A stretch of DNA of 64,000 bases. Origin: Erysipelotrichales bacterium. Its GTDB lineage: Bacteria > Bacillota_I > Bacilli_A > Erysipelotrichales > Erysipelotrichaceae. The notes beneath the pieces are model-generated. The model saw only the letters and a list, made by a program, of their open reading frames with translations, was not told where the DNA came from and made no database searches. Made by a program: the position numbers and the translations under genes. The DNA is taken from the NCBI GenBank assembly GCA_910575705.1, contig CAJTFG010000003.1, positions 1-64,000 of the forward strand, given 5' to 3'. Positions 5,936-62,013 of the stretch are shown here, piece after piece. Position 1 is the stretch's first letter; each line of letters begins with the position of its first letter.

Positions 5936-6404
5936 AAAAATCTCCTTTCATTAATCATAAAACAGGAAGGACTTGCATCTTTCCAAACGCTATGTTCTAC
6001 ATTTTTTCGTTAAGAATCATATTTTTAGAATTTCTCCAGTTGCTTTTTTCTTTCGATAACATTAGCAATTCTTAGTTTATTTATCAAACAATTGCTTGAG
6101 TTCTTTTTAAATATGTCTTTTACTTCCTATTCAAATCCGTTCAGTGCGTCAGAAACAGAACAGATTTCTATTAGTTATTCAAAGCTTTTCTTGTACTACC
6201 TGTTTTATATTCAATAATTCCTAAGGAAATACAGTCCAGATGAATAAAACGAATGATTTTTGTAACCATATGTGTTTCTTTGTAACAGAAAAATTCTAAT
6301 ACTTCAATATTTTTTTATTTAAAGCTTTATTAGAAAATTAATCAACTAATAACCTAACACCTATTATTCCATTATTAGTTAAATAAAAGAAACCTATATA
6401 GATG
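5936..6404. other. gene-free stretch with coding remnants
   Basis: No intact gene is seen over these 469 bases. On the minus strand about 6183-6300 holds an open frame of some 38 codons ending in GIIEYKTGSTRKALNN, and about 6030-6110 a further piece ending NVIERKKQLEKF. Both look like tails of decayed genes, but I cannot assign a family. Confidence 0.4.
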
Positions 6405-7790: not shown

Positions 7791-7910
7791 AGTATTCCTC
7801 CTATTTTATTTATATACTCATAAGTATTATACTCTAAAGTATAAAAAATATCAAACCATGATTTTTAATACCACTACTTGACATTGTCTACAACTTAAAT
7901 GATGAGAAAT

Positions 7911-9755: not shown

Positions 9756-9818
9756 AATAATGATACATACCTTTCTGATGCCACTATTATGTCGTGCTTT
9801 TTTTGATTTGACAGTGCC

Positions 9819-10049
9819 CTAATGCCCATATTTTTTATTCACCCTACAAGCAATCAGTTCTTTTAATAGCACTTTTATATTGATTGTTCCATCAATAAAC
9901 TTCACCTCATATGTCTTCCTGTTATTTACATTTGAAGTATTTGATTTTGGATTCTTTGATTGCATGGATCCATCTCCTATACTATCATATGAATCCATTT
10001 GACTTTGTTTTCTCTTTCTAAGAGAATCCGTTACATTCAGAGTTTTCAT
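9819..10049 (-). CDS. small hypothetical protein upstream of the recombinase
   Basis: This 76-residue polar protein has a serine- and asparagine-rich first half and a KTYEVKFIDGTINIKVLLKEL segment that could form a strand-helix unit. I do not recognise a family. It lies 63 bases upstream of the recombinase in the same orientation, so it may be a recombination directionality factor or regulator. Its start lacks a close ribosome binding site. GGAGG lies about 20 bases away, before a three-codon frame (ATG ATT ATG TAA) that ends next to this start, so coupled translation is possible. Confidence 0.5.
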   Translation of the reverse strand: MKTLNVTDSLRKRKQSQMDSYDSIGDGSMQSKNPKSNTSNVNNRKTYEVKFIDGTINIKVLLKELIACRVNKKYGH

Positions 10050-10123
10050 TTGATTACATAATCATAAAATTCCTCCATTCTTCTTTGATATTTTATCTCA
10101 AATTCCAATCTTTTTACTCCATC

Positions 10124-10156
10124 AAAAAAAGCTGAACTGATTGGAACAGCTTTTCA
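10124..10156 (-). terminator. terminator behind the FRG-domain gene
   Basis: AAAAGCTG and CAGCTTTT arms (10127-10134 and 10147-10154) form a hairpin that is followed by seven T on the minus strand, just downstream of the FRG gene. Confidence 0.6.
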
Positions 10157-10215
10157 TATTCTTTATTAATTTATTGAGGTTATGATTAATTTCTCTAACT
10201 TTTTCTCCAAATTTA

Positions 10216-11100
10216 TTATTTATTAATTTTAATTTGGTTCAAAGCTCCTTTTTTCTTTAAATATTTTCTTTCCTTATCCTCTCCAGACTTTTCTTTAACA
10301 ACCTTATTAACAGCATTAATACCATTCATAAAATTATCAGTTATCAAATCAAGTGCTTTATCTGTTTTACTTAAAATATTTAATTCTTTAATAAATTTGC
10401 ATGTTTCTTCTTCTAAAGAGGGATATATACTACTTTTATTAATTCCTAATAAATCTAATTCTTTTTTTAGTATATTAATAGAATCTTTGTCAATACTTAG
10501 CTCTTCGACTTCAAAAGCTTCAGATTTAGTAATATCGAAATCCTCGAAGAATAGAATAAAATCTCCTTTTTGATTTTTTATTCTATCAGAAATACTACTC
10601 CCATTTACCATGACTATTTTACTATTAATTATGTTTTTTTCATAAAAAGAATTCAATTCTTTATTCACAAAATAACTCGCTTTGCAATTCTTAGCTATTA
10701 TTAAATACACAACTGGTTCATCAGTTTCTTTAAAATTTTCTAATGCAAAGTATAAGGATACTAAAGGATTTGAAGTGACATCTAAAACCCTTGTTGGAAA
10801 ACCATAGTGTTGTAAAATATTGATTATACTGATTAAATCTTCATAAATAATATTTACAAAGTAATCATGATTTTTTTCAACAAACTTATAAATTTGGTTT
10901 ATTTCTTCATCTATATTGTTATAAAAAGGAAGGTCTGAATGCTTTTCTTTTTCTCTATAAAAGGAAGGAATTAATTTCCAGTTTTTATTGAATCCATTTC
11001 TTTGACCTCTATAAAAAATCTGTTCAGAAGGAAAATTAATCTTTCGTTCTTCGATTATTTCAATAAAGTTGGAAATATTTTTAATCTTATTGTTTATCAT
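10216..11100 (-). CDS. FRG-domain protein, element cargo
   Basis: The 294-residue protein contains an FRG domain over roughly residues 25-150. It shows an N-terminal FYRGQ motif, a PSFYR segment and the hallmark LQHYGFPTRVLDVTSNP. The domain is named for its F-R-G residues and is common in proteins of mobile elements and defence islands. Its biochemical activity is not established to my knowledge. The lysine-rich C-terminal 130 residues are not recognised. The start overlaps the end of the preceding small gene by 14 bases and has no ribosome site of its own, so the two are translationally coupled, as in toxin-antitoxin-like pairs. Confidence 0.8.
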   Translation of the reverse strand: MINNKIKNISNFIEIIEERKINFPSEQIFYRGQRNGFNKNWKLIPSFYREKEKHSDLPFYNNIDEEINQIYKFVEKNHDYFVNIIYEDLISIINILQHYGFPTRVLDVTSNPLVSLYFALENFKETDEPVVYLIIAKNCKASYFVNKELNSFYEKNIINSKIVMVNGSSISDRIKNQKGDFILFFEDFDITKSEAFEVEELSIDKDSINILKKELDLLGINKSSIYPSLEEETCKFIKELNILSKTDKALDLITDNFMNGINAVNKVVKEKSGEDKERKYLKKKGALNQIKINK

Positions 11101-22842: not shown

Positions 22843-23426
22843 GATGGATCCTCCATATACGCCAACAGCTTTGCCAATGCAAGACCACGATGCGATACTT
22901 TGTTTTTTTGTTCTTCCTCCACTTCACCAAGCGTTCTTCCAAAAGGTTCATAAAAGAAAATAGGATCATAGCCAAACCCATTATGACCGGCTGCCTGAAA
23001 GGCAACAGTTCCTTCCATAACACCCTCAAACACATGGATAGAACCGTCTTCCTTTGCATAAGCGATCGCACATACATACTGACAACGGCGGTCTTTCGCC
23101 TGTTTCAATTCATCAAGAATATACTGATTTTTATATTCATACGAGGTATCCTTTCCTAAAAAGCGGGCGGAATAAACACCCGGAGCTCCATGCAGATGGT
23201 TGATGGAAAGCCCGCTGTCATCACTGATCACCGGCATATGAAGGATATCAAACACCGTTTTTGCCTTTATCCGTGCATTTTCCGCAAACGTCTTCCCATC
23301 TTCTTCAATATCAATCGGCTCTTTTACATCCAGTAAACTTAGCACCTCGTAGCCAAGCGGCTCCAGCATCTGTTTAAATTCTTTTATCTTTCCCACATTC
23401 GTTGTCGCAATCATCATTTTTTTCAT
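22830..23426 (-). CDS. rdgB: XTP/dITP diphosphatase, RdgB/HAM1 family
   Basis: This enzyme removes non-canonical purine nucleotides (dITP, XTP) from the pool. The 198-residue protein has the N-terminal TTNVGKIKEF motif, the DDSGL loop, APGVYSARF and the C-terminal SHRGLALAK. I take the second ATG of ATGATG (23426), 8 bases after AAGGAG; it overlaps the TGA of the upstream radical-SAM gene. It lies in an operon with trmL. Confidence 0.95.
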   Translation of the reverse strand: MKKMMIATTNVGKIKEFKQMLEPLGYEVLSLLDVKEPIDIEEDGKTFAENARIKAKTVFDILHMPVISDDSGLSINHLHGAPGVYSARFLGKDTSYEYKNQYILDELKQAKDRRCQYVCAIAYAKEDGSIHVFEGVMEGTVAFQAAGHNGFGYDPIFFYEPFGRTLGEVEEEQKNKVSHRGLALAKLLAYMEDPSCYM

Positions 23427-25093
23427 CATTCCAACTCCTTTATCTTTGCGCATGCCGCATCTATAAAATATCGCTTAGGCATCGTTTTATCATTCTGAAA
23501 AACGATGACCTGATACCCGCATTCTCCTTCAAAATACCCTATATCCACAACACCGTAATGATACAAAATACCGCTTTCTTCCCTTCCCTGCTCGATCATA
23601 AACTGAAAAACCGCCTTGCGCTCCTCCATGCTCACTTCTTTCCACAAACGCTGCGGACGCTGTCGGTAACGCGTATAATAGTCCATCGTCAGCATACACT
23701 TTGCCGTATATTTTACATCAACGGGCAAAACCTCCAAAAACAAATAATACAACTGCGCGGCAGAATACGGATGCGGCAAACGCCTCATACGCTCTCCTAG
23801 CGCAACAAATAAATCAAAAGGACTTGAAAACCATCCACGGCGCAGTACTTCTTCTATACTTCTTCGAAATCTTCCGCTGTTATATAATTTCTCACACGCG
23901 GCAGCTGCTCCTTCTATGCGCTGCATTTCCTCTTCACAAAGCCACTTTGTCTTATAAACCGCATAAGGCGCTCGTTTTTCTTCCCGCAATCCATACTCTT
24001 CCCGCCGCTTCCACAGTTCGGTCCCTTTCAGCAGCTTTAATATCCCTAACTGAATCTCTTTCACATGATACGCAAACAGCGTATCAAAAGACATGCGGAA
24101 CCTCTCATATCCTTCATACGGAAGACCGGCGATCAGATCCACATGCATCGTGACACCGGCATTGCGCAAAGCAAAAATCACTTCTCGTAACCTTGTATTG
24201 TTCTGAATCCGTCTAACTGCATGCAGCGTCTGCGTATGAAAAGACTGTACGCCGATCTCTAAACGAAAACGCTTCTTATCCGCTTCTTTACAAAAGAAAT
24301 GAAGTAAATCATCCGATAATGTCTCCGCCACAATTTCAAACTGAAAAATCTGCCGCACACAATGCGCATTCATATAACGAGCGATCTTTAACGCTCTTTT
24401 AGGGTCTGCATTAAAGGTACGATCCAGCAATTTAACTTGACGTACTTGTGATCTTGAAAGCTGATCCAAAACAGAAAAGACATATTCATCAGAAAACATG
24501 CGCAGACAGGAGTCAACGGAACTGAGGCAATAGGAACAGCCGTATGGACAGCCGCGGCTTGTTTCCAAATACAAATACCGGTGTTCCATAGAATCCGCAT
24601 CCATCTCCATAAAATAAGGATCCGGCAGCGATTCCAAAAAACTTACATGTACCTTGCGATACGTAAGATTCGGAAATGATCTAGTATAGATACCCTCGAT
24701 CTCACAAGGAACACCGCATACCAGCATCTCGATATACTCCCATATGCTTTGTTCCCCTTCTCCGATGCTTAAAGCATCAATGCCTTGATCTAACAGCTCC
24801 GTAGAAGAAAAAGATACCTCCGGACCGCCGGCGATGATATGAAGATCCGGCTTTCTTTTTTTCAACAGATAAACGAGCTCCTTCATCTGTTCTATATTCC
24901 AAATATAAGTACTAAACGCCATCACATCGATATCCATTTGCAGGATATCATCCGCAACCCGCATAAGATCATCACGGATCGTATATTCCTTCAGGCATAC
25001 GTCATAATGAGCAGGACGCGCCTGATAGATCCATCGCAAAGCCAAATTTTTATGTATGTATTTCGCATTCAGCGTCGTCAATAAAATTTTCAT
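23426..25093 (-). CDS. B12-binding-type radical-SAM protein (DUF4080-like)
   Basis: This 555-residue protein has a Rossmann-like cobalamin-binding-type domain (residues 1-130, LLTTLNAKYIHKNLALRW start) and a radical-SAM core with the cluster motif SRGCPYGCSYC near residue 175. A C-terminal DUF4080-like domain of about 180 residues follows. The biochemical role of the family is unknown. It is the first gene of an operon with rdgB, trmL and a membrane protein. The B12-domain label is by fold and position; no DxHxxG motif is visible, so cobalamin need not be bound. Confidence 0.82.
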   Translation of the reverse strand: MKILLTTLNAKYIHKNLALRWIYQARPAHYDVCLKEYTIRDDLMRVADDILQMDIDVMAFSTYIWNIEQMKELVYLLKKRKPDLHIIAGGPEVSFSSTELLDQGIDALSIGEGEQSIWEYIEMLVCGVPCEIEGIYTRSFPNLTYRKVHVSFLESLPDPYFMEMDADSMEHRYLYLETSRGCPYGCSYCLSSVDSCLRMFSDEYVFSVLDQLSRSQVRQVKLLDRTFNADPKRALKIARYMNAHCVRQIFQFEIVAETLSDDLLHFFCKEADKKRFRLEIGVQSFHTQTLHAVRRIQNNTRLREVIFALRNAGVTMHVDLIAGLPYEGYERFRMSFDTLFAYHVKEIQLGILKLLKGTELWKRREEYGLREEKRAPYAVYKTKWLCEEEMQRIEGAAAACEKLYNSGRFRRSIEEVLRRGWFSSPFDLFVALGERMRRLPHPYSAAQLYYLFLEVLPVDVKYTAKCMLTMDYYTRYRQRPQRLWKEVSMEERKAVFQFMIEQGREESGILYHYGVVDIGYFEGECGYQVIVFQNDKTMPKRYFIDAACAKIKELE

Positions 25094-35465: not shown

Positions 35466-37028
35466 CTATCGATTATCAAAATCATCGTGAAAACGGAAAG
35501 GCTGCGTCAAAGAATCATCAACGTTTCCTCCAGCTCCATGATGCGTCTGTGCAGGGCGCCCGGATGACGACATATGCTGTCGATGATAGGTTGGCTGCTC
35601 TTCTTTTCTCTGCGTGATAGGTTTTGCATCTGCTTCCTTTTTTACCTGCAATTTATCGTTCTTCGGCATTTCCTTTTTTACCGTTTTTTTATTATTTTTA
35701 CTTTGATGACGACTGCGAAGCCATAAAATCAGGAATATGACAGCCAGTCCGCCAAAAGTTCCCGCTCCTATCATCAGATAGAGATTCTGTGTTAAAATAT
35801 CTTCATATGCTTCCTGAGTGACAGCTGCTGCACCTGAATAAGGCTGCAAGGTATTGGAATTCTTTTCATACTGGTAAAATACCTTTTCACCTTTCTCGTT
35901 CATCAGATAAACAAGACTGTAATCAGAAAAAGCCTCATTTTCAAATCTCCACCCTGGCATTTTCTGTCCGTCAATTTCCACTTCTCCAAATACCATGCCT
36001 TTTCTTACCTGCATATCTTCCGGTATATCGATAATAGCAAGGTTATTTCCTAAAAGGGCAATCGGCTTATAAACAGAGATGATGCGATCTCCTTCATAGA
36101 TATAAAAATTCTTTTCGCTTTTCTCGTCAATCAAATAAACAAGCGTTATATTGCTTACACTATTCTTCCATGCCGGAATTTCTTGTCCGCTGTAGTTCAA
36201 CGTAGTTTTTTCAAACCCATAAGGAGAGCTTACAGAATCCACATTGGTAATAACTCCATAGTCTTTTCCGTTTACCTTCATAAATGCGGTTGGTTTCTCA
36301 TCTACATACGCATTGATAACGTATGTTTTTTCACTGCCGTCTTCAGCAGTGACAACGACTGTCAGCTTATTATCACCCGGTTTCACACTCTTTTCACCTG
36401 TACCGGAAACGTTAGCCTTGCTGTCATTTGCCGTGGCTTCTACCGTAAGAGAGGTCGTATCCGCAGATAACACCAACTTATACTCTGTCACTGCACTGTC
36501 AAATACAGGATCCAGCGTTCCTCTTGACACCGTCAAAGAGGATAATGTATTATCCGAAGATTTTGGATCGGCAGTTTCGTTGCTCGGATCATAAACATTT
36601 CCTCCGCTATTTCCGGGATTTCCTACATTATTTGAAGAATTTCCGCCACCTGACGAACTAGGACGAGGAATGACATTAACAGTTGCACTAGTAGATATAT
36701 TTTGATCTAATCCTGTATCATAATCGGCAACAAGTCCATTAATCGATACTGTCAATTTACCAACGGCATTAGCCTTTACCGTATAAGACTTAGAACTATT
36801 ATCAAACCAATCATAATCACTAGCAGCACCGCTGACAGTAATAGAGCCTGCAGCACCACTGACACTCACCGTAAAAGTAACGCTATCGCCAACATAAGCA
36901 GTACTAGCATTAGCCCAAACAGACGCGGAAAATTGTGCATGTACAGGTTGAATACATTGTAAAAACATACATAGTCCTAATACACCACTACTAATCCATA
37001 TGAAAAACTTATGCATAAATTTGCTCAT
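35466..37028 (-). CDS. membrane-anchored surface protein with beta-sandwich domains
   Basis: The 520-residue protein begins with a signal peptide (cleavage likely after VHA near residue 31). Next come an Ig- or cohesin-like beta-sandwich of about 90 residues, a Ser/Gly/Asn linker, and a cadherin-like beta-sandwich (SSLTVSRGTLDPVFDSAVTEY, about residues 163-245). Two related beta units follow, then a transmembrane helix (about 417-437) and a long charged cytoplasmic tail of about 80 residues. It lies 12 bases downstream of a dockerin-bearing glucosaminidase gene. It may anchor that enzyme, which is inference. GGAG precedes the ATG by 7 bases. Confidence 0.8.
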   Translation of the reverse strand: MSKFMHKFFIWISSGVLGLCMFLQCIQPVHAQFSASVWANASTAYVGDSVTFTVSVSGAAGSITVSGAASDYDWFDNSSKSYTVKANAVGKLTVSINGLVADYDTGLDQNISTSATVNVIPRPSSSGGGNSSNNVGNPGNSGGNVYDPSNETADPKSSDNTLSSLTVSRGTLDPVFDSAVTEYKLVLSADTTSLTVEATANDSKANVSGTGEKSVKPGDNKLTVVVTAEDGSEKTYVINAYVDEKPTAFMKVNGKDYGVITNVDSVSSPYGFEKTTLNYSGQEIPAWKNSVSNITLVYLIDEKSEKNFYIYEGDRIISVYKPIALLGNNLAIIDIPEDMQVRKGMVFGEVEIDGQKMPGWRFENEAFSDYSLVYLMNEKGEKVFYQYEKNSNTLQPYSGAAAVTQEAYEDILTQNLYLMIGAGTFGGLAVIFLILWLRSRHQSKNNKKTVKKEMPKNDKLQVKKEADAKPITQRKEEQPTYHRQHMSSSGRPAQTHHGAGGNVDDSLTQPFRFHDDFDNR

Positions 37029-37040
37029 AAGATCACTCCT

Positions 37041-38759
37041 TTATTTTCCCATAATAATATTTTTAACTTTTACATAATCTGCTGGAGTAATCTTGCCATC
37101 TCCATTTAAATCCGCAGCAATTAAAGACGCACCACTTAATTTGCTAGAACCCATAATATGATTCTTTATCCTTACATAATCTGCTGGAGTAATCTTGCCG
37201 TCACCATTCACATCGCCTTTTTTATACCCTTCCTCAGGAACACGCTCCTCATTGGCTATTTTTACATAAGCACCACTGATATATCCGTAATCTGCGTTAA
37301 AATTATAATTGCCTACATCTTGAATAATAGCTGTTCTCTTATCATTCAATGGAGCGTCGGACTGAATCTTATACCATGTCGTGTTGCCGTTAACACTGGT
37401 TCCCTGCACTTCATCGAGGATTAATATCGGAACATTCCCCGGTGTATTCGTCGGATAAAACGCAGCGGAAGACGTATTAGGCTCCGCTCTTACCATAACG
37501 GCATCCGCATCTACGATACCGATCTTATAACGTCCGTAATCCTTACCGCCCGTAGCGCGGTCTACCGCATAGGCGATCGCAGCCATTTTCTCACCCCAAT
37601 ACGGGTCTGACGCATAACGTACATTAAATCCGTTTTGCTTATCGCCAAAATGAGGACCGTTATAATTCCCAAATGCATCCTTCGGATCCATATAATTGAT
37701 CGATACAAAATATTCCGCATGCGCTCTTACACAGTCCGCAGGCGTTTTATACAGCGTAGAGGCATCCGGATCAGAATCATATGCCTTATGTCCGAACAGA
37801 TTATTTTTCTGTTGTGCCATATTGGAATTGCCCCATGCACTCTCATTTGCCGCCAGACTGTAATTAAGCAGAGCATTGGCGCCGAACGTATTTTGCGCAT
37901 CGATAAAAGCAGATCCCAAACCGATCATCTTTGATGAGCTGTTATTTGCCGTATCTCTTGTCGTTGTATCAAATTCAGCAGCACTGATGCTCGTCTTTGT
38001 ACGCTGTGACAGATATTGATAATAGTTATAATAAGGATTGTTAGGGTTGATCGAATTCTTTCTCGTGTTGTTTTTATAATCAGCAATCATAGACGCATAG
38101 GTCAGATAAAAATAATGACCGTCATAACTGTAATAAACCGTATTGTTCTGCATATAAGACTGCTTAGGACCAAAGTCCAAAGAAGCTGCATATGTATTTC
38201 TTGAAAGATCTGTCGTAATATAGTGCTTAATCCTTCCTTGCTCTACACGATAGAAATTCACGGATTTCACTTCACTGACATCATCGTAATTGAGAACTTC
38301 TACTTCAGAAGGAGAGACAAGCCCGATCACACCGCTTTGCATAAAACGAACTTTCCCGTTTACCATTCCCAAATAGGCAGCATCCGCTCCCGAACAGCCG
38401 TTGGTATATCCCGCACGTCCCGTCGTTTCTTCCGTATAAGACGTCGTATAATTACATGCCTTGATTTTGAAATTCACAACGCCGTTAGTCACATCGCGCG
38501 GCATGCTATAAGGAGAAATACCACCGATCCCTCGCAGCAGCGGATTCAGTAAAGTGTCCTGCGTACGATGACCGTCTTCCACATAAACCGTATCGATCGA
38601 TCCATCCATATTTACCGTATGAAATTCAAATTCTTCTTCTGTCGGCAGTTCTTCTATTTCTTCATCGGCATTGGATGACGCATAAACATTGAACGGCAAT
38701 ACGAAAAGCGACATCATGATATAGGATAAAACAAATATATAACGATAACTTTTCTTCAT
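37041..38759 (-). CDS. secreted glucosaminidase with SH3-like and dockerin domains
   Basis: This 572-residue exported protein has a signal peptide (residues 1-27, ending VYA) and an N-terminal domain of about 170 residues of unknown fold. A GH73-type N-acetylglucosaminidase domain follows, with a likely catalytic glutamate in ANESAWGNS near residue 300 and NNLFGHKAYD after it. An SH3b-like region (about 410-500) precedes a C-terminal type I dockerin. The dockerin has two calcium-loop repeats, each built on DxNGDGKITPADYVxxKN (about 508-572). Dockerins normally plug into cohesins. The enzyme would cut peptidoglycan glycan strands at the surface. Confidence 0.9.
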   Translation of the reverse strand: MKKSYRYIFVLSYIMMSLFVLPFNVYASSNADEEIEELPTEEEFEFHTVNMDGSIDTVYVEDGHRTQDTLLNPLLRGIGGISPYSMPRDVTNGVVNFKIKACNYTTSYTEETTGRAGYTNGCSGADAAYLGMVNGKVRFMQSGVIGLVSPSEVEVLNYDDVSEVKSVNFYRVEQGRIKHYITTDLSRNTYAASLDFGPKQSYMQNNTVYYSYDGHYFYLTYASMIADYKNNTRKNSINPNNPYYNYYQYLSQRTKTSISAAEFDTTTRDTANNSSSKMIGLGSAFIDAQNTFGANALLNYSLAANESAWGNSNMAQQKNNLFGHKAYDSDPDASTLYKTPADCVRAHAEYFVSINYMDPKDAFGNYNGPHFGDKQNGFNVRYASDPYWGEKMAAIAYAVDRATGGKDYGRYKIGIVDADAVMVRAEPNTSSAAFYPTNTPGNVPILILDEVQGTSVNGNTTWYKIQSDAPLNDKRTAIIQDVGNYNFNADYGYISGAYVKIANEERVPEEGYKKGDVNGDGKITPADYVRIKNHIMGSSKLSGASLIAADLNGDGKITPADYVKVKNIIMGK

Positions 38760-50672: not shown

Positions 50673-51506
50673 CTATTTTCCTATAGTCTTCTTATACTCT
50701 CCCGGCGTTATGGAATATGTATTCTTAAATGTCTTATATAAGCTCACATCCGATTTAAAACCGCTTAATAAAGCGATCTCCTCTATCGTTTTCGTCGTTG
50801 ACAACAACAGTATCTTCACCTGTGAAAGACGTTTTCGTATCAAATACTCGTATGGCGTCATCAGCATGATCTCCTTAAAGATGCGAAGGAAATAATACTC
50901 GCTGTATCCTGTCGCTTCCGAAATATCTTTCAGCTTTATATCCCGCTGATAGTTTTCTTCCATAAAGGTCAGCGCCTTATCGATCACATCCTGTTTACTG
51001 CTCCATGATTTCAGCACGTGCCGTTCAATGTGCAGATCGGCATATAGGCGTAAAACGGAAGAACTGATAGAAAACTCATCGACCAAGTGATATTTATCCA
51101 GACTTTGAAAAACGGAATGAAAAAATATCTCTGTTTTTTTACTGAAACGCAAATCCATGATGATCGTATCCTCCCGGATGTACTGATCGATATCCATTCC
51201 TTCCAAAACAGCATAATACCCCTCACATTCATCCAAAAAGACGGAGAACGGCTGATGCATTCTCTTGATCAATGTAGCAGAACCACACAACGCATGATAT
51301 TCCCTCCCATCCACAAGGATGGCATTTCCCCCATTCACATATAAAACAAGATACTGCTGTTCTTTGATCTCATCAAAATGCTGAATATAAGATTCCTTCA
51401 TTTTAAAATGACCGATCTGCTTCACCATCTGCAAATGCGTTTGCGCAAACTGCGTAGGCTGCAATACATCTTCTCTGAGAAAATCCGCTTTATCATGGTC
51501 AAACAC
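50673..51506 (-). CDS. AraC-family transcriptional regulator
   Basis: This 277-residue protein has an N-terminal effector-binding region (about 1-165) and a C-terminal double helix-turn-helix AraC domain (about 175-275) with ISEATGYSEYYFLRIFKE and IALLSGFKSDVSLYKTFKN. The GTG at 51506 has GAGGTG 6 bases upstream; a GTG three codons earlier has no site. It lies just downstream of the corrinoid methyl-transfer operon on the same strand and is the likely regulator of that operon, by position only. Confidence 0.88.
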   Translation of the reverse strand: MFDHDKADFLREDVLQPTQFAQTHLQMVKQIGHFKMKESYIQHFDEIKEQQYLVLYVNGGNAILVDGREYHALCGSATLIKRMHQPFSVFLDECEGYYAVLEGMDIDQYIREDTIIMDLRFSKKTEIFFHSVFQSLDKYHLVDEFSISSSVLRLYADLHIERHVLKSWSSKQDVIDKALTFMEENYQRDIKLKDISEATGYSEYYFLRIFKEIMLMTPYEYLIRKRLSQVKILLLSTTKTIEEIALLSGFKSDVSLYKTFKNTYSITPGEYKKTIGK

Positions 51507-51540
51507 GAGTATCACCTCAGCGCTATTATATCATTAATAA

Positions 51541-51563
51541 GACGCTCTCAAAAGAAGAGCGTC
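51541..51563 (-). promoter_or_regulatory. inverted repeat between the activator gene and the AraC gene
   Basis: GACGCTCT and AGAGCGTC form a perfect 8-bp inverted repeat with a 7-base spacer. It overlaps the stop of the activator gene and lies just upstream of a TATAAT that could drive the AraC gene. It could be a weak terminator or an operator; the T tract is poor. Confidence 0.45.
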
Positions 51564-53031
51564 AATTTTCATTACATATTTCCAACATCATATGTTCCAT
51601 AAACAGCTGTGTAAACAATTCATCCCCTGCCAAAAGCAGACATTCACTTCTGTTTCGTATGTCTTCTATGCTTTCGATATCCTGATGTATCGCATACTGA
51701 CATGTTCCACGAAGAGCGCTGTTTCCAAGCACATGGAGACGTCCCGAAAGCTTATCAGGCAAAATTCCCAAAGCCAAAAGATCCTGCGGCCGGGCATATT
51801 TACCGAATCCTCCGGCTATATATAATTCTTCAATTGCAGAAACGCTAATCGAGGCGTGCCGGCACATACATAAAAATGCAGCGATAACCGATGCCTTTGC
51901 CAACTGAAATTCACGGACATCTTTCTGATTCACGACCGCCTTGGGATGAAAGAACAACTCCTTAGCAAGATAGCCGTCCGGCTCCAGCAGTCCGTTATCC
52001 AAAGCCTGATGAAAGATCGAAAGATAACCGCTTCCACAAATACCGCAGACAGGTGCCTGTTCCAATGTTTCATAGTGCCATTTTTCGTCATAGCCACTCC
52101 TACAAAGAGCTCCCGATACGGCACCGCTCCCACAGCTCATATTGCCCCCTTCAAAGGCCGGTCCGCAGGCAGCGCTCGTAACATAGAGACGATGATCATG
52201 ATACAATGCCATTTCCCCATTTGTCCCCAGATCGATCAATGCCTTTGTCTTATCCTGCTTCATAATCTGTGTGCTGTAAAGTCCCATGACCACATCACTG
52301 CCCACATAAGCGGAGATCGGAGGCAACAGCTGGATCACAAAACGATGTTTCCAATTCGGAAACAGCTGTTGACCGGGCAGTTCTTTGTACGTATCCAAAG
52401 TACAGCGATACGGTGCTTGACCGATACTGCTTGGGTCAACTCCCGCAAATAGATGCATCATAGTCGGATTCCCGCATACGCACATCCGCTTCCACGCATA
52501 CCCATCAAAGGAAGCAAGCTCTTTTTCGATCTTCTTGACCAATATGGATTGAAGGGGCTCTATACCGATCTTAGCTGTCTGTGCAATACGCGTGATAACA
52601 TCGGCTCCATAACGGCTTTGGGGATTTAAAAATGTCTTCTCTCGTAAGATCTTTCCCTCATACAAGTCGATCAATACAGCCGCGATCGTCGTCGTTCCGA
52701 TATCCAAGGCAACCGCAAATCCCTCTTCTTTAACGCTTTCAAAAGTTTCTTCATGAATGGAACAGATCGTATAAGACACATGTTCACGATATGGTTCGCA
52801 CACACAGTCATCCTCACAATCGGGATGGGCACATGCCAGACGAACGCCAAGAAGCAATTCCTCTTCCGATAAATGTCGGCGTTCCGCATCATGAATCGGA
52901 AGATTCCCTTGCATTACGCGGATCTTGCACTTCCCACAGCGGTGATTCCCACCGCAAGGTGCCTGTATTTCGAAAGAAGAATCCCGCATGATCGCATCAT
53001 ACAGATTCTCATGTTTTGAAATGAACGCCAT
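51562..53031 (-). CDS. reductive activator of corrinoid protein (RACo-like)
   Basis: This 489-residue protein has an N-terminal [2Fe-2S] ferredoxin domain with CGGNHRCGKC (C26, C32, C35) and a fourth cysteine near residue 72. An ASKHA-type ATPase domain follows, with VALDIGTTTIAAVL near 100, ALIDLGTNGEMAL near 255 and ELYIAGGFGKY near 405. RACo-type enzymes use ATP and a reductant to return inactive Co(II) corrinoid to Co(I). Its ATG overlaps the TGA of the corrinoid-protein gene (TGATG). It is the last gene of the four-gene methyl-transfer operon. Confidence 0.9.
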   Translation of the reverse strand: MAFISKHENLYDAIMRDSSFEIQAPCGGNHRCGKCKIRVMQGNLPIHDAERRHLSEEELLLGVRLACAHPDCEDDCVCEPYREHVSYTICSIHEETFESVKEEGFAVALDIGTTTIAAVLIDLYEGKILREKTFLNPQSRYGADVITRIAQTAKIGIEPLQSILVKKIEKELASFDGYAWKRMCVCGNPTMMHLFAGVDPSSIGQAPYRCTLDTYKELPGQQLFPNWKHRFVIQLLPPISAYVGSDVVMGLYSTQIMKQDKTKALIDLGTNGEMALYHDHRLYVTSAACGPAFEGGNMSCGSGAVSGALCRSGYDEKWHYETLEQAPVCGICGSGYLSIFHQALDNGLLEPDGYLAKELFFHPKAVVNQKDVREFQLAKASVIAAFLCMCRHASISVSAIEELYIAGGFGKYARPQDLLALGILPDKLSGRLHVLGNSALRGTCQYAIHQDIESIEDIRNRSECLLLAGDELFTQLFMEHMMLEICNEN

Positions 53032-53663
53032 CAGCAATACTGTAATAAGGTATCGGCCAAGGCTACGGCATCTTCCGTATAAATATCCGCACCGACTTCA
53101 TCCGCAAAAGCCGGAGTAATCGGCGCTCCTCCGACCGCAACCTTCACACGATCACGCAGACCCGCTTCTTGTAAAGCATCGATCACTACCTTGAAATTTC
53201 CCATTGACGTCGTCAGCAAAGAAGAAAGACATACTACCATAGGCTGATATTCACGTACCGCTTCTACAAACTTATCCGCACCGACATCGACACCGACGTC
53301 GATTACTTTGAAATTTTTGGCTTTCAACATCAAAGCACATAGATTTTTACCGATATCATGAAGATCCCCTTGCACTGTTCCGATGACTACCACCGGTCTT
53401 TCCGCTTCTTTTTCTTCTAACAAATATGGTTCCAAAAGAGGAATTGCGGCATTCATACATCTTGCGGTAATCAAAACCTCCGGGATAAAAGCAGTACCGT
53501 CTGCCCATTTCTTCGCAATGATATCCATCGCCTGTAACAGCCCTTCCTGCAAGATGGTCTGGGCAGGAACGCCTTCTTTTAACGCGCGTTCTACCAAAGC
53601 ATTCACTTCATTCATCTTGCCTTTCGGCATCAATGTTTTGATTTCTTCCATAAGTTCATTCAT
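53031..53663 (-). CDS. corrinoid (B12-binding) methyl-carrier protein
   Basis: This 210-residue protein has a helical cap domain (about 1-88) and a B12-binding Rossmann domain with DLHDIG (D100, H102 as lower cobalt ligand, G105), SSLLTTSM near 147 and GGAPIT near 175. It is the MtaC/MtbC/MtvC type, carrying a methyl group between two methyltransferases. The ATG at 53663 is preferred; the GTG at 53672 sits against the GGAG site. Confidence 0.94.
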   Translation of the reverse strand: MNELMEEIKTLMPKGKMNEVNALVERALKEGVPAQTILQEGLLQAMDIIAKKWADGTAFIPEVLITARCMNAAIPLLEPYLLEEKEAERPVVVIGTVQGDLHDIGKNLCALMLKAKNFKVIDVGVDVGADKFVEAVREYQPMVVCLSSLLTTSMGNFKVVIDALQEAGLRDRVKVAVGGAPITPAFADEVGADIYTEDAVALADTLLQYC

Positions 53664-53668
53664 ATCGT

Positions 53669-54757
53669 TCACTCTCCTCTGTCTTTCTTGCCAACTTCAT
53701 CCGCATAACGATACGCCTCTTCTATAAAAGCTACGAAATTCTCCAAAGGCACGTTATCCTGTATACGGTTATTCAAGGTAAAAATCATCTTTCCTTTTTT
53801 CGGCTGATGGAAAACATCGATAAAATGACGTGCTTCCTGCTTTACTTCTTCGACCGTTCCGAAGGGGAGAATGCGTTGAAGATCCATCCCCGCCCAGAAT
53901 GTCAGATCATCTTTAAACGTATCGACGACTTCCTGCTCATCCATCGCATATTTTTGTATCGGATGCAAAACATCAAGGCCTGCCTCGATAAACTGCGGTA
54001 TGAGTAAGCGAGCATCTCCGCAGCAATGCAGCCATACATGCAGACCAAGAGAATGCGCATAGTCGCATATTTCCTTATAGTAAGGAAAATAGAATTCACG
54101 GAACATCTCCGGTGACATAAACGGTCCCTTCTGCATACCGAGATCATCACCAAAGGCGATGGCATCAATATGCGCTTCTTCCACTCCCCGCTTCGTTGCG
54201 ACTTTAAAGAAATCCGTTACTTTGCGGTTGATCTTATGAATTTCTTCGGGATTCGTATACAGATCCATCATCGCATTTGTCATACCGCGATAATCCCATA
54301 AGCGTCCCCATGGCCCATTAGAGAACCACACCATTCGATAACGTCCGTCTTCTTTCGGCGCGTTTACATACATGGTGGGCTCTTCCGCATTCGGCACATA
54401 ATCGCTGATCTGGCGAAATACATCCCAAGATATCGCAGATTCTTCATCAATGCCTACCGTTCCCGTTCGATGAAGCGATGGATCAGCATCCGGTACATCA
54501 CACCAAGTATACGTATCTCCCGGTTTACCGAATAAGGATGGTTTTTTCAAATAGAAAACCTGCATATCCTCCGGATATTTCTTTAACAGCTGTTCGATGA
54601 CCGGCTGTTTTTCTACACTCAACTCATCAATATGAAGCCAATGTCCACAAGCGATCGCCGGGCGCGGCGTACCGGTACCATTGATGAGAGATTTCATCTC
54701 CTCTCGCGTCAAAGGCAAATACGCTGCTTCCGGAAAATTTTCCTTTTTACAATACAT
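53669..54757 (-). CDS. UroD-family methyltransferase, probable substrate:corrinoid enzyme
   Basis: This 362-residue member of the uroporphyrinogen decarboxylase/MtaA superfamily has an HCCGD motif near residue 236. The later position that holds a zinc-binding cysteine in MtaA reads TLNNRIQDNVPLEN here. That C-terminal pattern occurs in UroD-type methyltransferases thought to demethylate methoxylated compounds or amines; the substrate here is unknown. The ATG at 54757 is 7 bases from AGGAGG and overlaps the upstream gene by 11 bases. Lack of heme-pathway neighbours argues against a true decarboxylase. Confidence 0.82.
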   Translation of the reverse strand: MYCKKENFPEAAYLPLTREEMKSLINGTGTPRPAIACGHWLHIDELSVEKQPVIEQLLKKYPEDMQVFYLKKPSLFGKPGDTYTWCDVPDADPSLHRTGTVGIDEESAISWDVFRQISDYVPNAEEPTMYVNAPKEDGRYRMVWFSNGPWGRLWDYRGMTNAMMDLYTNPEEIHKINRKVTDFFKVATKRGVEEAHIDAIAFGDDLGMQKGPFMSPEMFREFYFPYYKEICDYAHSLGLHVWLHCCGDARLLIPQFIEAGLDVLHPIQKYAMDEQEVVDTFKDDLTFWAGMDLQRILPFGTVEEVKQEARHFIDVFHQPKKGKMIFTLNNRIQDNVPLENFVAFIEEAYRYADEVGKKDRGE

Positions 54758-55772
54758 GTTCATTCCTCCTTTGATTATCATCATCCAGGCTCATAAAAAA
54801 CTGATCGATATTTTCCCACTTCGCCGTCGGCGGAATATCGCAGCCGGAAGACAAGACGAAATTAGGATATTGTCTGCATTCTTCCAATAAGAACGCTACC
54901 GCTTTTTGCATATCCTCAGATGTTCCATTACAGAAGCACGCTACCGGATCAATATTGCCCATCACGGGAATATCCGCAGGGATCTGCTGCAAAACATCTT
55001 TCATAGAGACCGCATTCCCGAAATGATACGCATGACAGGTCGTTTTTAAGATCTCTTCTACCGATTGTGCGGCACTCGGTCCGCAATTATGATATAAGAT
55101 CGAAAAATCATCGTCTTGCAATTTCTCACAAATCTCCTTGATGTAACAGCTGGAAAACTGCTCTACCATAGAAGGCGGAAGCAATCCGGCAAGTGGCTCT
55201 GCCATCAAGACACCGTTTGCGCCGGCATCCTTATATGCCCGAACATACGTTTTCAAAAACGCGGTTGCCTTTTCCAATACAACGGTCGCATATTCCGGAT
55301 TCATCATGCATTCTACCATGATCTCGCTTACATCCATCAAACGCCCAGCCAGTGAGAACGGTCCTATCACACCGGCAAATACTGCGCGATCCGCTTGTTT
55401 CATGACTTCTCTGATCGCCTGTATATACCGTTGACAGCGCCCGGCAGTCAAGTCCGGAACCGACATCTTTTGAGCTTCTTCCAACGAATGCACCAGCTGT
55501 CCCGTTACTGCCGGTACTTCATGATCACTGAACTGCACCTCACAGCCAAACGCTTCTGCTTCTACCGAAAGATCCATCATAGATACGATCGCCAGCTGTT
55601 GAGGCAAGCGCTGTACGATCTTTTGCATTGCTTCCGCCTGTAAATGTCCATCGTTCAACAGTTCCTTTACTCGGACATCGAGAAGCTGCACAGCCGGAAA
55701 GGATAAAATAGCCAATCCCTTCGTCTCTTTGCCGCATATTTCTTCCTTCCATTTATGATAACTGTAGTTCAT
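54747..55772 (-). CDS. UroD-family (MtaA-like) corrinoid methyltransferase
   Basis: This 341-residue member of the same superfamily retains the MtaA-type zinc ligands: HNC in LYHNCGPS near residue 231 and a late cysteine in LSSGCDIP near 312. It may move the methyl group from the corrinoid protein to an acceptor, but acceptor and direction are inference. It is the first gene of the operon. The ribosome site is weak, and a tiny eight-codon frame with AAGGA before it ends in ATGA at this start, so coupled initiation is possible. Confidence 0.8.
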   Translation of the reverse strand: MNYSYHKWKEEICGKETKGLAILSFPAVQLLDVRVKELLNDGHLQAEAMQKIVQRLPQQLAIVSMMDLSVEAEAFGCEVQFSDHEVPAVTGQLVHSLEEAQKMSVPDLTAGRCQRYIQAIREVMKQADRAVFAGVIGPFSLAGRLMDVSEIMVECMMNPEYATVVLEKATAFLKTYVRAYKDAGANGVLMAEPLAGLLPPSMVEQFSSCYIKEICEKLQDDDFSILYHNCGPSAAQSVEEILKTTCHAYHFGNAVSMKDVLQQIPADIPVMGNIDPVACFCNGTSEDMQKAVAFLLEECRQYPNFVLSSGCDIPPTAKWENIDQFFMSLDDDNQRRNEHVL

Positions 55773-57661: not shown

Positions 57662-58915
57662 CTATAGCTCTATCTTTTTCGGAAATGCCTCTTTCCGCAA
57701 AATCCCCCACATCTTATCAATATACGCAAGCGTATAGAAGTTTTCATAGTAGTGATAGTAAAATGCTCCTTTCAGCGTCATGCTGTATACATCGTTTTCT
57801 TTCACAAGAAACCCTAACCATTCGGCAATTTTTAATTCCGTTCCATACATTTTTTTCAACGGAACACCAAAGAAGCGCTCAAAATCTTTGGCATCTACCT
57901 TTGTACTGTATGCAGTCCAAAACAAATAATATACCATGCGCTGCCGTAAAGAAAAACGAATGGTCAGCGCAGTCGGAAGGTTTCCTTCTTCCACCCTTTT
58001 GCAATATTCCTCAATAGAAAACGTATTGATTTTAAACTGCTCTCTCAATAATGTTGTCGCAGAACAGCCAAAGCCTAAAAAACTATCTCTGGTCATAGAA
58101 GAATACGTTGCCTGCTTATCCTTTGAAAACGTCCAAATAGAACTGCGGTGATATCCCTTATCCATACAATAGCGCGTAACGGCATCCAAAAGAGCCTGCT
58201 TTTCTTTTTTAGGCATTGTCGTTACCGTACTTGATGTAAATGTAAAATCAATGAACGGATAAATCGCCACATGATTGGCACCGTTTTGAAATGCCGCATC
58301 GATATCTGCCTTCAGATCATCAAACGTCTGCATCGGCAAAGCGAAGATAAAATCCATGGAAACCGTTTCAAAAGAAACTTGGGACAATACTTCCTTCAAA
58401 GTCGAAATATCCACGGTTTCCCTGCCCAGGACCGTTTGAAATTTCTTTTGAAAAGACTGGATGCCAATGCTGATTTTCGTTACACCGGCTTCTTTCAAAA
58501 TGCGTAAAACAGAGGGCACCACATTATCCGGATGCAGTTCTATGCCGATCCCTTCCGTAAGGACATAATGTTCCCGTATCGCACTGATGATTTCTTTAAG
58601 CCGATCCGCCGCAAGAGCCGGCGTACCACCGCCGAAGTATAGGCTCGTCGTTTTTTTCTTACCGATGTGCTGACTGCCGACAAGATGGATCTCTTGAATC
58701 AAGGCGTCGATATACCGATCGTATACTTCCTCTAAATATCTGACTTTACAATATGGACAGAAATTACAAATGCTTTTACAAAACGGGATATGTACATACA
58801 ATCCTAAATTGTCACATTCCGAAAAAGGAAGCTGCTGGTCATATTCACTTTTAAATATAAACGGCTTCATCGAACGAGTCAGCCACATTCTTGTCAAGTT
58901 TGTTATCGTACTCAT
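57662..58915 (-). CDS. HemN/HemW-like radical-SAM protein
   Basis: This 417-residue protein has the family start VHIPFCKSICNFCPYC (C-x3-C-x2-C plus a further Cys), LYFGGGTPA and the SIGIQSF strand of coproporphyrinogen-oxidase-like radical-SAM enzymes. No heme genes lie nearby and the C-terminal third is divergent, so a heme function is doubtful. It is paired, 7 bases apart, with another radical-SAM gene, so the two probably act in sequence. AGGAG precedes the ATG. Confidence 0.85.
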   Translation of the reverse strand: MSTITNLTRMWLTRSMKPFIFKSEYDQQLPFSECDNLGLYVHIPFCKSICNFCPYCKVRYLEEVYDRYIDALIQEIHLVGSQHIGKKKTTSLYFGGGTPALAADRLKEIISAIREHYVLTEGIGIELHPDNVVPSVLRILKEAGVTKISIGIQSFQKKFQTVLGRETVDISTLKEVLSQVSFETVSMDFIFALPMQTFDDLKADIDAAFQNGANHVAIYPFIDFTFTSSTVTTMPKKEKQALLDAVTRYCMDKGYHRSSIWTFSKDKQATYSSMTRDSFLGFGCSATTLLREQFKINTFSIEEYCKRVEEGNLPTALTIRFSLRQRMVYYLFWTAYSTKVDAKDFERFFGVPLKKMYGTELKIAEWLGFLVKENDVYSMTLKGAFYYHYYENFYTLAYIDKMWGILRKEAFPKKIEL

Positions 58916-58922
58916 ATCGCTC

Positions 58923-59825
58923 CTAAATATATTTCAAATATGTCTTTAACATTTCAAAGATGATCTTTATATTCCCACGGAATAAAAGAGTATATTCAGC
59001 CACAAAAAAATAACCGCATTCATCGCAAAGCCCCGGTATCTCAATGCAGCGTCCGCAAGTCGAAATCTTTCCATTTTCCATGATCACACACTGATGGCAA
59101 GGCGTAGGAAACCGATTTTGGATAATGTATGGAAAAGCGCTTTTTAAATTAAATACAGGCACCCCTTCTTTCATCATCTTCACAATATCTTCACAGCACT
59201 TCGCTTTTTCTTCTTTTGAAAGCGCCAATTCCCTCGTATCGGGATACGGTGTATGAAAGTTAAAAGATACCGCTCGGACGTTTTGAACATCGCGGGCAGT
59301 GCGGCAAACATCACAGACAGCGTCTTTGTTTATCTGATTAATCGCCATATAAAAGCAGATATTATCAGAAGTCGCCTGTTTGACATTTTCCATAATGGTA
59401 TCATAGGTATCTCCGCGAATGATATTATGACGCTCCCTATCCCCATCAAGACTGAGCAAAATCAAATCGGCTTCCGGAAGATCTATCGGAAATGTACCGT
59501 TCGTAACCGTGTTGACAATTAAAAATCCCATCTTTTTCGCTTCCACGACAAGATCGCGCAGCGTCCGTTCTCCGTCTTCCCATAAGAACGTCTCGCCGCC
59601 GTAAAAAAACAGGATCCGTACACCCATATCGTAAAGCTGCCGCATCTCATTACGAATCTGTTTGTAAGGATGCATGACCGCCGTAATGTTATTGACGGAA
59701 CAATGCTTACATTTTAAATTGCATTTATCTGTCACGATGATCGTACCGAGGATCGGTTCTCTTTTCTTAAATAAAATCGTTTTAATTCCGAAACGCGCAA
59801 AATGTACAAATGAAGAAATTTTCAT
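58923..59825 (-). CDS. radical-SAM protein paired with the HemN-like gene
   Basis: This 300-residue protein has a cluster motif CNLKCKHC near residue 34, GGETFLW, and a late cysteine-rich region (CHQCV, CGRC, CDEC) that could hold an auxiliary cluster. The ends carry hydrophobic, basic stretches that may touch the membrane. It resembles HpnH- or MoaA-like enzymes in the core only. It is first in a two-gene operon with its own promoter. The substrate is unknown. Confidence 0.85.
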   Translation of the reverse strand: MKISSFVHFARFGIKTILFKKREPILGTIIVTDKCNLKCKHCSVNNITAVMHPYKQIRNEMRQLYDMGVRILFFYGGETFLWEDGERTLRDLVVEAKKMGFLIVNTVTNGTFPIDLPEADLILLSLDGDRERHNIIRGDTYDTIMENVKQATSDNICFYMAINQINKDAVCDVCRTARDVQNVRAVSFNFHTPYPDTRELALSKEEKAKCCEDIVKMMKEGVPVFNLKSAFPYIIQNRFPTPCHQCVIMENGKISTCGRCIEIPGLCDECGYFFVAEYTLLFRGNIKIIFEMLKTYLKYI

Positions 59826-59968: not shown

Positions 59969-61786
59969 TCACTCCACCGTAACCGATTTGGCAAGGTTGC
60001 GCGGCTGATCGATCTCACATCCGCGCAGATTGGCGATCTGATAAGATAACAGCTGCAAAGGTATTACCGTTACGATCGTCTGTAAAAACACATCGACCTT
60101 AGGTACGGATATCCGATAATCATAAAAATCCCGATCTACCTGAAAGTCCTCACGGCATATCAGGATCACATTCGCTCCGCGCGCCTTCACTTCCTTGATA
60201 TTGCTGATGGTTTTTTCATACAGCTGTTCGTCTGTTGCCAACGCGATCACCGGTGTCCCTTTTTCGATAAGAGAGATCGTACCGTGCTTCAATTCTCCGG
60301 CGGCATATGCTTCACTGTGTATATAGGAGATCTCCTTAAGCTTTAAAGATCCTTCCATGGACAAAGCATAATCCAGACCGCGGCCGATGAAGAAAACATT
60401 GCCGTAACGGCTGATCATCTTGCCTGCCTCTACATATTGGCGATCTTTCATCATCCCTTCAAGAGTCTCCTCCAGCTGATCGATTTCCCGCAGGATCTCC
60501 CGGATTCGTTCTATTGATACATAACCGTGAATATGTGTCAGATGAAAGGCGATCATCGATAAGAGTGCTACCTGCGTACAATAGGCCTTTGTCGTAGCTA
60601 CGGCGATCTCGGGCCCGGCAAGCGTATACGCTACATATTTCGCTTCTCTGGCAATGCTGCTACCGACGACATTCACGATCGCAAATGTATCGATGCCCTG
60701 TTCTTTAGCCAGCTGCAAAGCGGCTAACGTATCTGCGGTTTCTCCGCTTTGCGAAATCAAAAGTACCAGCGTATGTTGGGAAAAGATGGGATCTTTATAA
60801 CGATACTCGCTGGCGACTTCGACATCTACACGGATACGCGCCTTGCTTTCTATGAGGGATTTCGCAATCATGCCCGCATACATAGCGCTGCCGCAGGCAA
60901 CGATATGAATCTCTTCATAGGCGGATAAATCGGGAAGAGTTTCCTGCAAGGAATGAATATCATCTTTCAGATACGCACGTATCGTATCCATGACCACCTT
61001 CGGCTCCTCATGGATCTCTTTCAGCATGAAATGCTCATAGCCACCCTTTTGAATATCCATGATGTCCATATCCGCTGTTTTGATCTCATATGTGATTTCC
61101 TGTTTATCTTTATCATACATATGAATACAATCTTTAGAAATGACCGCCATTTCATCCTGTCCCATCAAAATATAGCGACGGCTGTATTTCAATATGGCAG
61201 GTACGTCGCTGGCAATAAAATTCCCTTCTTCTCCCACTGCCGCAATGAGAGGGGAATTTCTCCGCATTGCGTAAATATGTTCCTGATCATCATCGAATAA
61301 GATCCCAAAAGCAAAGCTTCCGCGAAACGAGCGGATAGCTTGTGCCATCGCTTCCAATTTGTCCTGCGTCTTACGATAAAGAAAGTCAAGATACGCACAT
61401 GCTACTTCGCTGTCTGTCTCCGATGCAAAAACATACCCTTCTTTCTGAAGTTCTTTTTTTAATTCATGATAGTTTTCAATGATACCATTATGAACCAGCG
61501 TTACTTTTCCCTGATGATGAGGATGGGCGTTGTGCTCATCCGGTACACCGTGCGTCGCCCATCGAGTGTGCGCGATGCCGAGAGTGGAAGAAGCGATCTT
61601 CTTTTGTCTCAGTTTTTCTTCCAGACGGCTGACCTTCCCTTTCGTCTTTACACAAAGAAACCCATTCTGTTGCAGCACCGCCGCACCTGCTGAATCATAT
61701 CCGCGATATTCAAGTGCCTTCAATCCATCGATCAAAACATCATTCGAGATAGACTTTGATCCTGCATAACCTACAATTCCACACAT
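59969..61786 (-). CDS. glmS: glucosamine-6-phosphate synthase
   Basis: This 605-residue enzyme makes glucosamine-6-phosphate from fructose-6-phosphate and glutamine for the cell wall. It has an N-terminal glutaminase domain with catalytic Cys2 (MCGIVGYAG), THTRWATHG-like and HNGIIENY motifs, and two SIS isomerase domains (from about 280 and 455) ending in KSVTVE. The ATG at 61786 follows AAAGGAG. A longer frame runs into the ribozyme leader and is not used. It is controlled by the glmS ribozyme upstream. Confidence 0.97.
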   Translation of the reverse strand: MCGIVGYAGSKSISNDVLIDGLKALEYRGYDSAGAAVLQQNGFLCVKTKGKVSRLEEKLRQKKIASSTLGIAHTRWATHGVPDEHNAHPHHQGKVTLVHNGIIENYHELKKELQKEGYVFASETDSEVACAYLDFLYRKTQDKLEAMAQAIRSFRGSFAFGILFDDDQEHIYAMRRNSPLIAAVGEEGNFIASDVPAILKYSRRYILMGQDEMAVISKDCIHMYDKDKQEITYEIKTADMDIMDIQKGGYEHFMLKEIHEEPKVVMDTIRAYLKDDIHSLQETLPDLSAYEEIHIVACGSAMYAGMIAKSLIESKARIRVDVEVASEYRYKDPIFSQHTLVLLISQSGETADTLAALQLAKEQGIDTFAIVNVVGSSIAREAKYVAYTLAGPEIAVATTKAYCTQVALLSMIAFHLTHIHGYVSIERIREILREIDQLEETLEGMMKDRQYVEAGKMISRYGNVFFIGRGLDYALSMEGSLKLKEISYIHSEAYAAGELKHGTISLIEKGTPVIALATDEQLYEKTISNIKEVKARGANVILICREDFQVDRDFYDYRISVPKVDVFLQTIVTVIPLQLLSYQIANLRGCEIDQPRNLAKSVTVE

Positions 61787-61872
61787 AAGATACTCCTTTC
61801 CGCGCTTTTTGCGCATTAGAAAAATATCCTGCTTCAGGACTTTTTCTTTTTTTGCGTTGAAATAACTTTTAA

Positions 61873-61985
61873 GCATTATGATCTTGCCTTTGTATCATTT
61901 CTTACGATCCGCATGACCGTAGCAGTACCCGCCGAATATTTCGATCACTGCTATCCTCGTCAACAGCCATAGCTGTCCAGGCGCT
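61873..61985 (-). ncRNA. glmS ribozyme
   Basis: On the minus strand the leader begins AGCGCC (cleavage just 5' of the G at 61984). It continues with a CUGGACAGC...GCUGUU hairpin, GACGAGGAU, AUCGAAAUAUUCGGCGGG and a P4-like hairpin (61878-61898). These match the conserved core of the self-cleaving, glucosamine-6-phosphate-sensing glmS ribozyme in Bacillota, and the strand is that of the glmS gene behind it. The 3' boundary is approximate. Confidence 0.93.
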
Positions 61986-62013
61986 CATCACTGCATAGGC
62001 AGCAACTGTACAC

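Follow-up and report, generated by a model that had tools for sequence, protein, structure and literature searches.

A corrinoid methyl-transfer operon with two different UroD-fold proteins in an Erysipelotrichales genome

Here, we describe a compact operon in a window of 64,000 nucleotides (positions 1 to 64,000 of the forward strand of contig CAJTFG010000003.1, assembly GCA_910575705.1 of an Erysipelotrichales bacterium) that, judged from the proteins it encodes, is almost certainly a corrinoid-dependent methyl-transfer system. It comprises two UroD-fold methyltransferases (UroD1 and UroD2), a corrinoid carrier and a RACo-type reductive activator, and is flanked by the gene of an AraC-family regulator. 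The component classes, their motifs, the lack of folate enzymes in the genome and the exchange of partner proteins among relatives are established at the level of sequence, whereas the methyl donor, the acceptor and the direction of transfer are what we infer. We tentatively propose, with somewhat less than even confidence, that the operon forms a modular methyl shuttle in which UroD2 would demethylate a carbohydrate-linked O-methyl compound and UroD1 would methylate a thiol.

The same set of proteins had been proposed in the initial annotation and was confirmed by coordinates as well as by Pfam and NCBIfam profiles, which were used for the domain assignment of the operon proteins; all five genes lie on the minus strand where that annotation had placed them (Table 1). 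The carrier retains an intact B12-binding motif (D-x-H-x-x-G (103), S-x-L (150) and GG (181)), consistent with the cobalamin binding that had been predicted for it, and scored 207 bits against the NCBIfam MtgC profile, under the cut-off of 370. RACo is likewise intact, with its Cys cluster (C28, C34, C37, C69) and ASKHA motifs, and it matches the structure PDB 3zyy (4.5e-56). The sole other B12-binding domain detected belongs to a radical SAM gene at 23426-25093.

The assembly, rated as 100% complete and searched family by family, has no UroD proteins besides UroD1 and UroD2. A HemE (uroporphyrinogen decarboxylase) identity was rejected for both: UroD1 scored 66 bits against a cut-off of 303, UroD2 gave no HemE match, and the RQAGR motif is absent from either protein. 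As comparators for a 51-protein tree, CmuA, three HemE proteins and an Acetoanaerobium cluster of four UroD proteins were used in place of OdmB, VdmB, Mlp1-3 and MtaA. HemE was separated from all other proteins with a support of 100, so neither protein groups with the decarboxylases, and UroD1, UroD2, the UroD3 fusions found in relatives (see below) and the Acetoanaerobium cluster formed distinct groups.

By alignment, UroD1 carries the zinc triad of MtaA (H228, C230 and C311). It scored 135 bits against NCBIfam PRK06252 (methylcobalamin:CoM methyltransferase; cut-off 244) and 124 bits against the curated MtaA/CmuA model TIGR01463 (cut-off 235), under the threshold in each case, and the best structural match of its AlphaFold model (pLDDT 93) is MtaA (4ay7, TM 0.83). 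UroD2 keeps H253-x-C255, and its third zinc Cys is replaced by Asn339, which aligns to UroD1 C311 in a profile-profile comparison (hhalign) and is Asn in 58/58 aligned UroD2 homologs. The UroD2 model is equally confident (pLDDT 93); its profile gave weak matches only against the PDB (CdmB, E 0.2), and a fold search returned UROD/MtaA matches only, with TM about 0.6. As these matches are weak or generic, we draw no substrate inference for UroD2 from structure. In the UroD superfamily, a His-Cys-Cys site marks S/Se methyltransferases, whereas O-methyltransferases replace one or both Cys, with carboxylates or non-ligands reported at these positions (Kountz and Balskus, PMC10418091). By this rule UroD1 would be thiol-type and UroD2 O-type, a correlation suggesting that they are different kinds of enzyme. 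We propose UroD1 as a thiol methyltransferase on the acceptor side and UroD2 as a donor-side O-demethylase, and the zinc-site residues of the latter favor the methoxy donor suggested in the initial annotation.

Methyl exit and the exchange of partners

The operon had been annotated as lacking MtrH, and this extends to the genome: no pterin-binding domain (PF00809; MtrH, MetH, FolP) was matched anywhere in the assembly, and family searches of the assembly found neither MetF, nor a MetE (PF01717) protein, nor a PF02574 homocysteine methyltransferase. As a positive control, 14 control genomes were searched in the same way, with matches in 9 to 13 of them. With all four absent, methyl-tetrahydrofolate (methyl-H4folate) would be neither formed nor oxidized by a known route; folate as methyl acceptor was thus rejected, as far as family searches reach, and this genome seems to offer no exit to folate. 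Since the usual folate acceptor enzymes are absent, the methyl group is probably passed to a sulfur compound instead. Salvage of selenium is unlikely, as no SelD scored over the cut-off in this genome. Homocysteine is a tempting acceptor because all known methionine synthases are missing, an argument weakened by two operon-free relatives (G002 and G018) that also lack MetE and PF02574 proteins. The single full-length PF01053 enzyme of the genome is most like methionine gamma-lyase; its gene follows CoA-disulfide-reductase/rhodanese-like and C_GCAxxG-like genes (L131:3486-6946, G000:C1).

Of the 196 genomes of the family, 13 encode UroD2 relatives (8 among the 124 good genomes), and the named relatives Holdemanella, Faecalitalea and Longicatena make the gut origin assumed at the outset plausible. 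The protein that accompanies UroD2, carrier and activator differs between them: it is UroD1 in the window, in Faecalitalea and in two Lachnospiraceae metagenome-assembled genomes (MAGs), UroD3 (MtaA-like, with a C-terminal thioredoxin domain) in Holdemanella, Longicatena and two others, and the methanol:corrinoid methyltransferase MtaB in one genome. Mapped onto the UroD2 tree, the partner states require at least five changes, which is not significantly fewer than for shuffled labels (mean 6.1) and indicates that the partner is close to freely exchanged. Genus g8 alone has none of UroD1, UroD3 and MtaB; in their place stands a second UroD2 together with a glycyl-radical enzyme, an activase and a DeoC-like aldolase. 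Five of its six genomes encode a stand-alone MeTr (methyl-H4folate:corrinoid methyltransferase; identity of the other four to the first, 82-89%) with an adjoining MetF gene. Such a protein was found in 0 of 14 operon-free relatives and in 0 of the 7 other operon genomes scanned, which have MetH-sized proteins or none. Loading of the carrier by UroD2, with unloading left to the variable partner, would be expected to produce this pattern.

Carbohydrate genes recur around the relatives' loci. In the two Lachnospiraceae MAGs, UroD1 is preceded by a fructose/mannosylglycerate-type phosphotransferase system (PTS; IIA, IIB, IIC) and a GH38 gene resembling mannosylglycerate hydrolase, with a gap of 9 nt between GH38 and UroD1 in one of them (L043). 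An alpha-glucoside/glucose-type PTS stands before the UroD pair of Longicatena, followed by LarA-like and GH4 genes, and in the MtaB genome a mannose-type PTS and a BtpA gene lie divergently upstream. More distant UroD2 genes lie beside sugar ABC permeases or a rhamnose-mutarotase-like gene, and in Peptoclostridium acidaminophilum a carrier and a UroD gene are directly preceded by a set of sugar ABC genes and a DUF4091 gene. Overall, 12 of 57 loci had a sugar transporter match in the flank, mostly less than 2 kb away by gene count.

Further features of these loci were recorded as side observations. UroD3 (L045:1744-3108, L051:7612-8988, L054:5370-6746) has a CAAC motif in its thioredoxin-like domain and Phe in place of the zinc-site His, and its neighbors in L051 and L054 include CobW and DUF1638 genes. 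At L036 (G117), L033-L035 and L039-L041, the glycyl-radical enzyme, activase and DeoC-like aldolase share a cluster with the corrinoid genes, with HPS/PHI (formaldehyde-type) genes near and, in several, a NanE-like gene. The MtaB-operon genome (G005) encodes a MetH-like protein of 510 amino acids (L028:1042-2574) with a homocysteine domain and about half a pterin-binding domain, which may be truncated or folate-independent. A Subdoligranulum variabile plasmid (OY725838.1, 80000-109843; L150) carries three UroD2-like genes, with neighbors that by eye look glycosidase-like and ROK-like; the same plasmid has a UroD1 homolog (50%) with a RACo gene.

Donor, acceptor and direction of transfer

In the proposed shuttle, RACo would reduce the carrier from Co(II) to Co(I) in an ATP-driven step, as its family suggests, and Co(I) would take a methyl group from the O-methyl compound via UroD2. 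The donor would most likely be a methylated sugar, a methyl glycoside or its phosphate. UroD1 would then move the methyl group from the CH3-Co(III) carrier to a zinc-bound thiolate, for which the candidate acceptors are sulfide, homocysteine and other thiols, and relatives would retain UroD2 and the carrier while swapping the methyl-disposing partner. The more specific claim, that corrinoid chemistry removes O-methyl groups from transporter-imported sugars and delivers them through a swappable acceptor module to a thiol and not to folate, we regard as doubtful. The proposal keeps the class of system named in the initial annotation and parts with its methylamines and betaines: no MttB-like open reading frame was seen within the window (no genome-wide MttB search was made), and the relatives' neighborhoods point to carbohydrates. 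The difference between UroD1 and UroD2, the apparently closed folate exit and the swapping of partners had all escaped that annotation.

Several points weigh against the proposed shuttle. The window operon itself has no adjacent sugar transporter or glycosidase, so the donor in this genome is read from relatives; their transporters belong to different classes and need not share one substrate, and the sugar association was counted without a genome-wide control. The zinc-site argument for the roles of UroD1 and UroD2 is correlative. Partner states are nested in the phylogeny and g8 is one genus, so the MeTr correlation amounts to about a single independent contrast. Finally, the MtaB genome has UroD2 as its sole UroD protein, and because MtaB normally loads the carrier with methanol, this genome fits the opposite orientation as well.

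In that orientation, UroD1, UroD3 or MtaB would load the carrier from various substrates, and UroD2 would be a shared, novel acceptor-side enzyme. The constancy of UroD2 amid varying partners and transporters would suit such a role, as would MtaB, a known donor-side enzyme, in a genome whose only UroD protein is UroD2 and which gave no pterin-binding match. Nevertheless, we consider this unlikely, given the thiol-acceptor-type site and MtaA-like fold of UroD1, the missing third Cys of UroD2, the presence of MeTr and MetF as an acceptor side in g8, and the stand-alone UroD2 homologs that adjoin sugar ABC genes, as expected of a substrate-side enzyme. Alternatively, the operon could be a variant of the type 1 mlp clusters compared below, in which both UroD proteins would work on S or Se to demethylate methylated sulfur or selenium compounds. 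The gene classes are shared, an H4folate methylase is likewise missing, UroD1 has the His-Cys-Cys site, and the methionine gamma-lyase-like gene could supply methanethiol; however, the third Cys is missing throughout the UroD2 homologs, SelD is not over the cut-off, the UroD1 and UroD2 clades are separate from the Acetoanaerobium cluster proteins, and the relatives' context is carbohydrate, not sulfur or selenium, making this quite improbable.

A special case of the proposed shuttle, which shares in its probability, would make the operon the organism's sole methionine synthase, with transfer from the corrinoid carrier to homocysteine without folate. The absence of MetE, MetH and any other PF02574 or PF01717 protein and the thiol-type zinc site of UroD1 speak for it. 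Auxotrophy seems common, however, as G002 and G018 lack MetE and PF02574 proteins without having the UroD2 operon; homocysteine synthesis is doubtful with a lone full-length PF01053 enzyme most like methionine gamma-lyase, and several operon-bearing relatives own MetH or a homocysteine methyltransferase, so we give this case little credence. We judge it similarly improbable that the operon performs a classic acetogen-like O-demethylation of dietary methoxylated aromatics, with the acceptor enzyme encoded elsewhere in the genome: gut-type relatives, a corrinoid operon and the O-type zinc site of UroD2 would all agree with it, but the genome has no MtrH-type acceptor and no MetF, the relatives' context is sugar, and in profile comparison UroD2 is no more than weakly similar to CdmB, which is itself related to the aromatic O-demethylases.

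Methylated sugars are present in plant, algal and microbial glycans. Their demethylation is described for 6-O-methylgalactose as an oxygen-dependent P450 reaction (PMC10033563), the sole such route met in our literature search; corrinoid demethylation of methylated sugars was not found in this search, whose limited scope makes it no proof of novelty. If the shuttle proposed here is correct, it would be an anaerobic counterpart to this oxygen-dependent chemistry, which is useless in the anoxic gut, and would explain how anaerobes use methylated sugars. It would also link the use of sugars in the gut to the supply of vitamin B12 and constitute a folate-bypassing methyl pathway, the product of which, be it methanethiol, methionine or methanol, would have effects on the host and the community. 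Partner swapping around a fixed UroD2 offers a natural experiment on which protein does what.

Gene arrangement and other features of the window

Table 1. Genes of the corrinoid operon and adjoining features
Feature	Coordinates	Strand	Evidence and likely start
AraC-family regulator, C-terminal HTH	50673..51515	-	Pfam HTH_18 1.8e-18; likely start GTG 51506
Terminator-like hairpin at RACo stop codon, between RACo and araC	51541..51563	-	Poor T run, weak
RACo-type reductive activator	51562..53037	-	RACo_C_ter 1.8e-48, Raco_middle 6.7e-39, Fer2 3.3e-5; likely start ATG 53031
Corrinoid carrier, MtgC/MtbC-like	53031..53672	-	B12-binding 8.3e-25, B12-binding_2 1.1e-15; likely start ATG 53663
UroD2, UroD-fold methyltransferase	53669..54784	-	Pfam URO-D 2e-20; likely start ATG 54757
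UroD1, MtaA-like UroD-fold methyltransferase	54747..55772	-	Pfam URO-D 2e-50

Gene starts and junctions were judged by eye. Of the overlaps described in the initial annotation, those of UroD1 with UroD2 (about 11 nt, with AGGAGG 7 nt upstream of the most likely UroD2 start) and of the RACo ATG within a TGATG junction stood, whereas that of carrier and UroD2 is doubtful because the most likely carrier start lies 5 nt past the UroD2 end; coupling is tight even so. The arrangement is kept in other genera and is thus not due to chance. Given the hairpin at the RACo stop codon and a TATAAT seen by eye upstream of araC, the regulator gene may be transcribed separately, and its product is a probable sensor of the operon substrate. 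A promoter scan returned fewer sites than in shuffles and was uninformative. Among RNA elements, no cobalamin riboswitch or other regulator of the operon was found, the sole match being a glmS ribozyme (Rfam RF00234, 61.8 bits; 61849-61996, minus strand) before glmS at 59969-61876.

Elsewhere on the minus strand, two neighboring radical SAM genes (57662-59825), one HemW/HutW-like and one short, had no clear NCBIfam assignment. By eye, the gene at 37041-38759 on this strand encodes a secreted protein with a glucosaminidase-like region and dockerin-like repeats at its end (GDVNGDGKITPADYVRIKN), and the gene after it, at 35466-37028, encodes another secreted protein, which has a membrane segment at its C-terminus. 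Again by eye, a small mobile or defense island seems to occupy 5249-11100 of the minus strand: a serine recombinase (7911-9755) has as neighbors genes for an ATPase (6405-7790), for an HNH-like protein (5249-5935) and for an FRG-like protein (10216-11100).

Comparison with known systems

The operon is a variant of corrinoid methyl-transfer systems that we place in no named family. Among described systems, the type 1 mlp gene cluster of anaerobic Firmicutes comes closest: the operon has in common with it at least two UroD-family proteins, a corrinoid protein, a RACE-type activator and the lack of an H4folate methylase (Kountz and Balskus, PMC10418091). The Mlps of these clusters, some Mlp1 apart, have His-Cys-Cys, as does UroD1 but not UroD2, and 87% of the encoders have the selenium trait (PMC10418091), in contrast to the window's genome with no SelD over the cut-off, although a non-selenium minority exists. 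Moreover, UroD1 and UroD2 do not fall among the four UroD proteins from one Acetoanaerobium cluster, in a tree that holds no labeled Mlp references, and the relatives' context is carbohydrate rather than the sulfur or selenium of type 1 mlp clusters.

With methanogen MtaABC, the operon shares the plan of a donor enzyme, a corrinoid carrier and a UroD-fold enzyme that methylates a thiol. The zinc ligands and the model of UroD1 are MtaA-like, while its scores remain under the curated MtaA cut-offs, and one relative has MtaB; in the window, the place of the donor MtaB would be taken by UroD2, and the acceptor, coenzyme M in MtaABC, would be some thiol. The acetogen systems OdmB, VdmB and MtvB and the chloromethane system CdmBCA (PMC13222342) likewise pair a corrinoid carrier and an activator with a donor-side methyltransferase of UroD fold; they use an MtrH-type acceptor leading to folate, of which the window's genome has none, and UroD2 is only remotely similar to CdmB. 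Lastly, MesA-C share the idea of passing a methyl group from a corrinoid protein onto a thiol with no folate involved, yet the folate-independent core methionine synthases MesA-MesD are MetE relatives (PMC7857596), and the window's genome is without a PF01717 protein.

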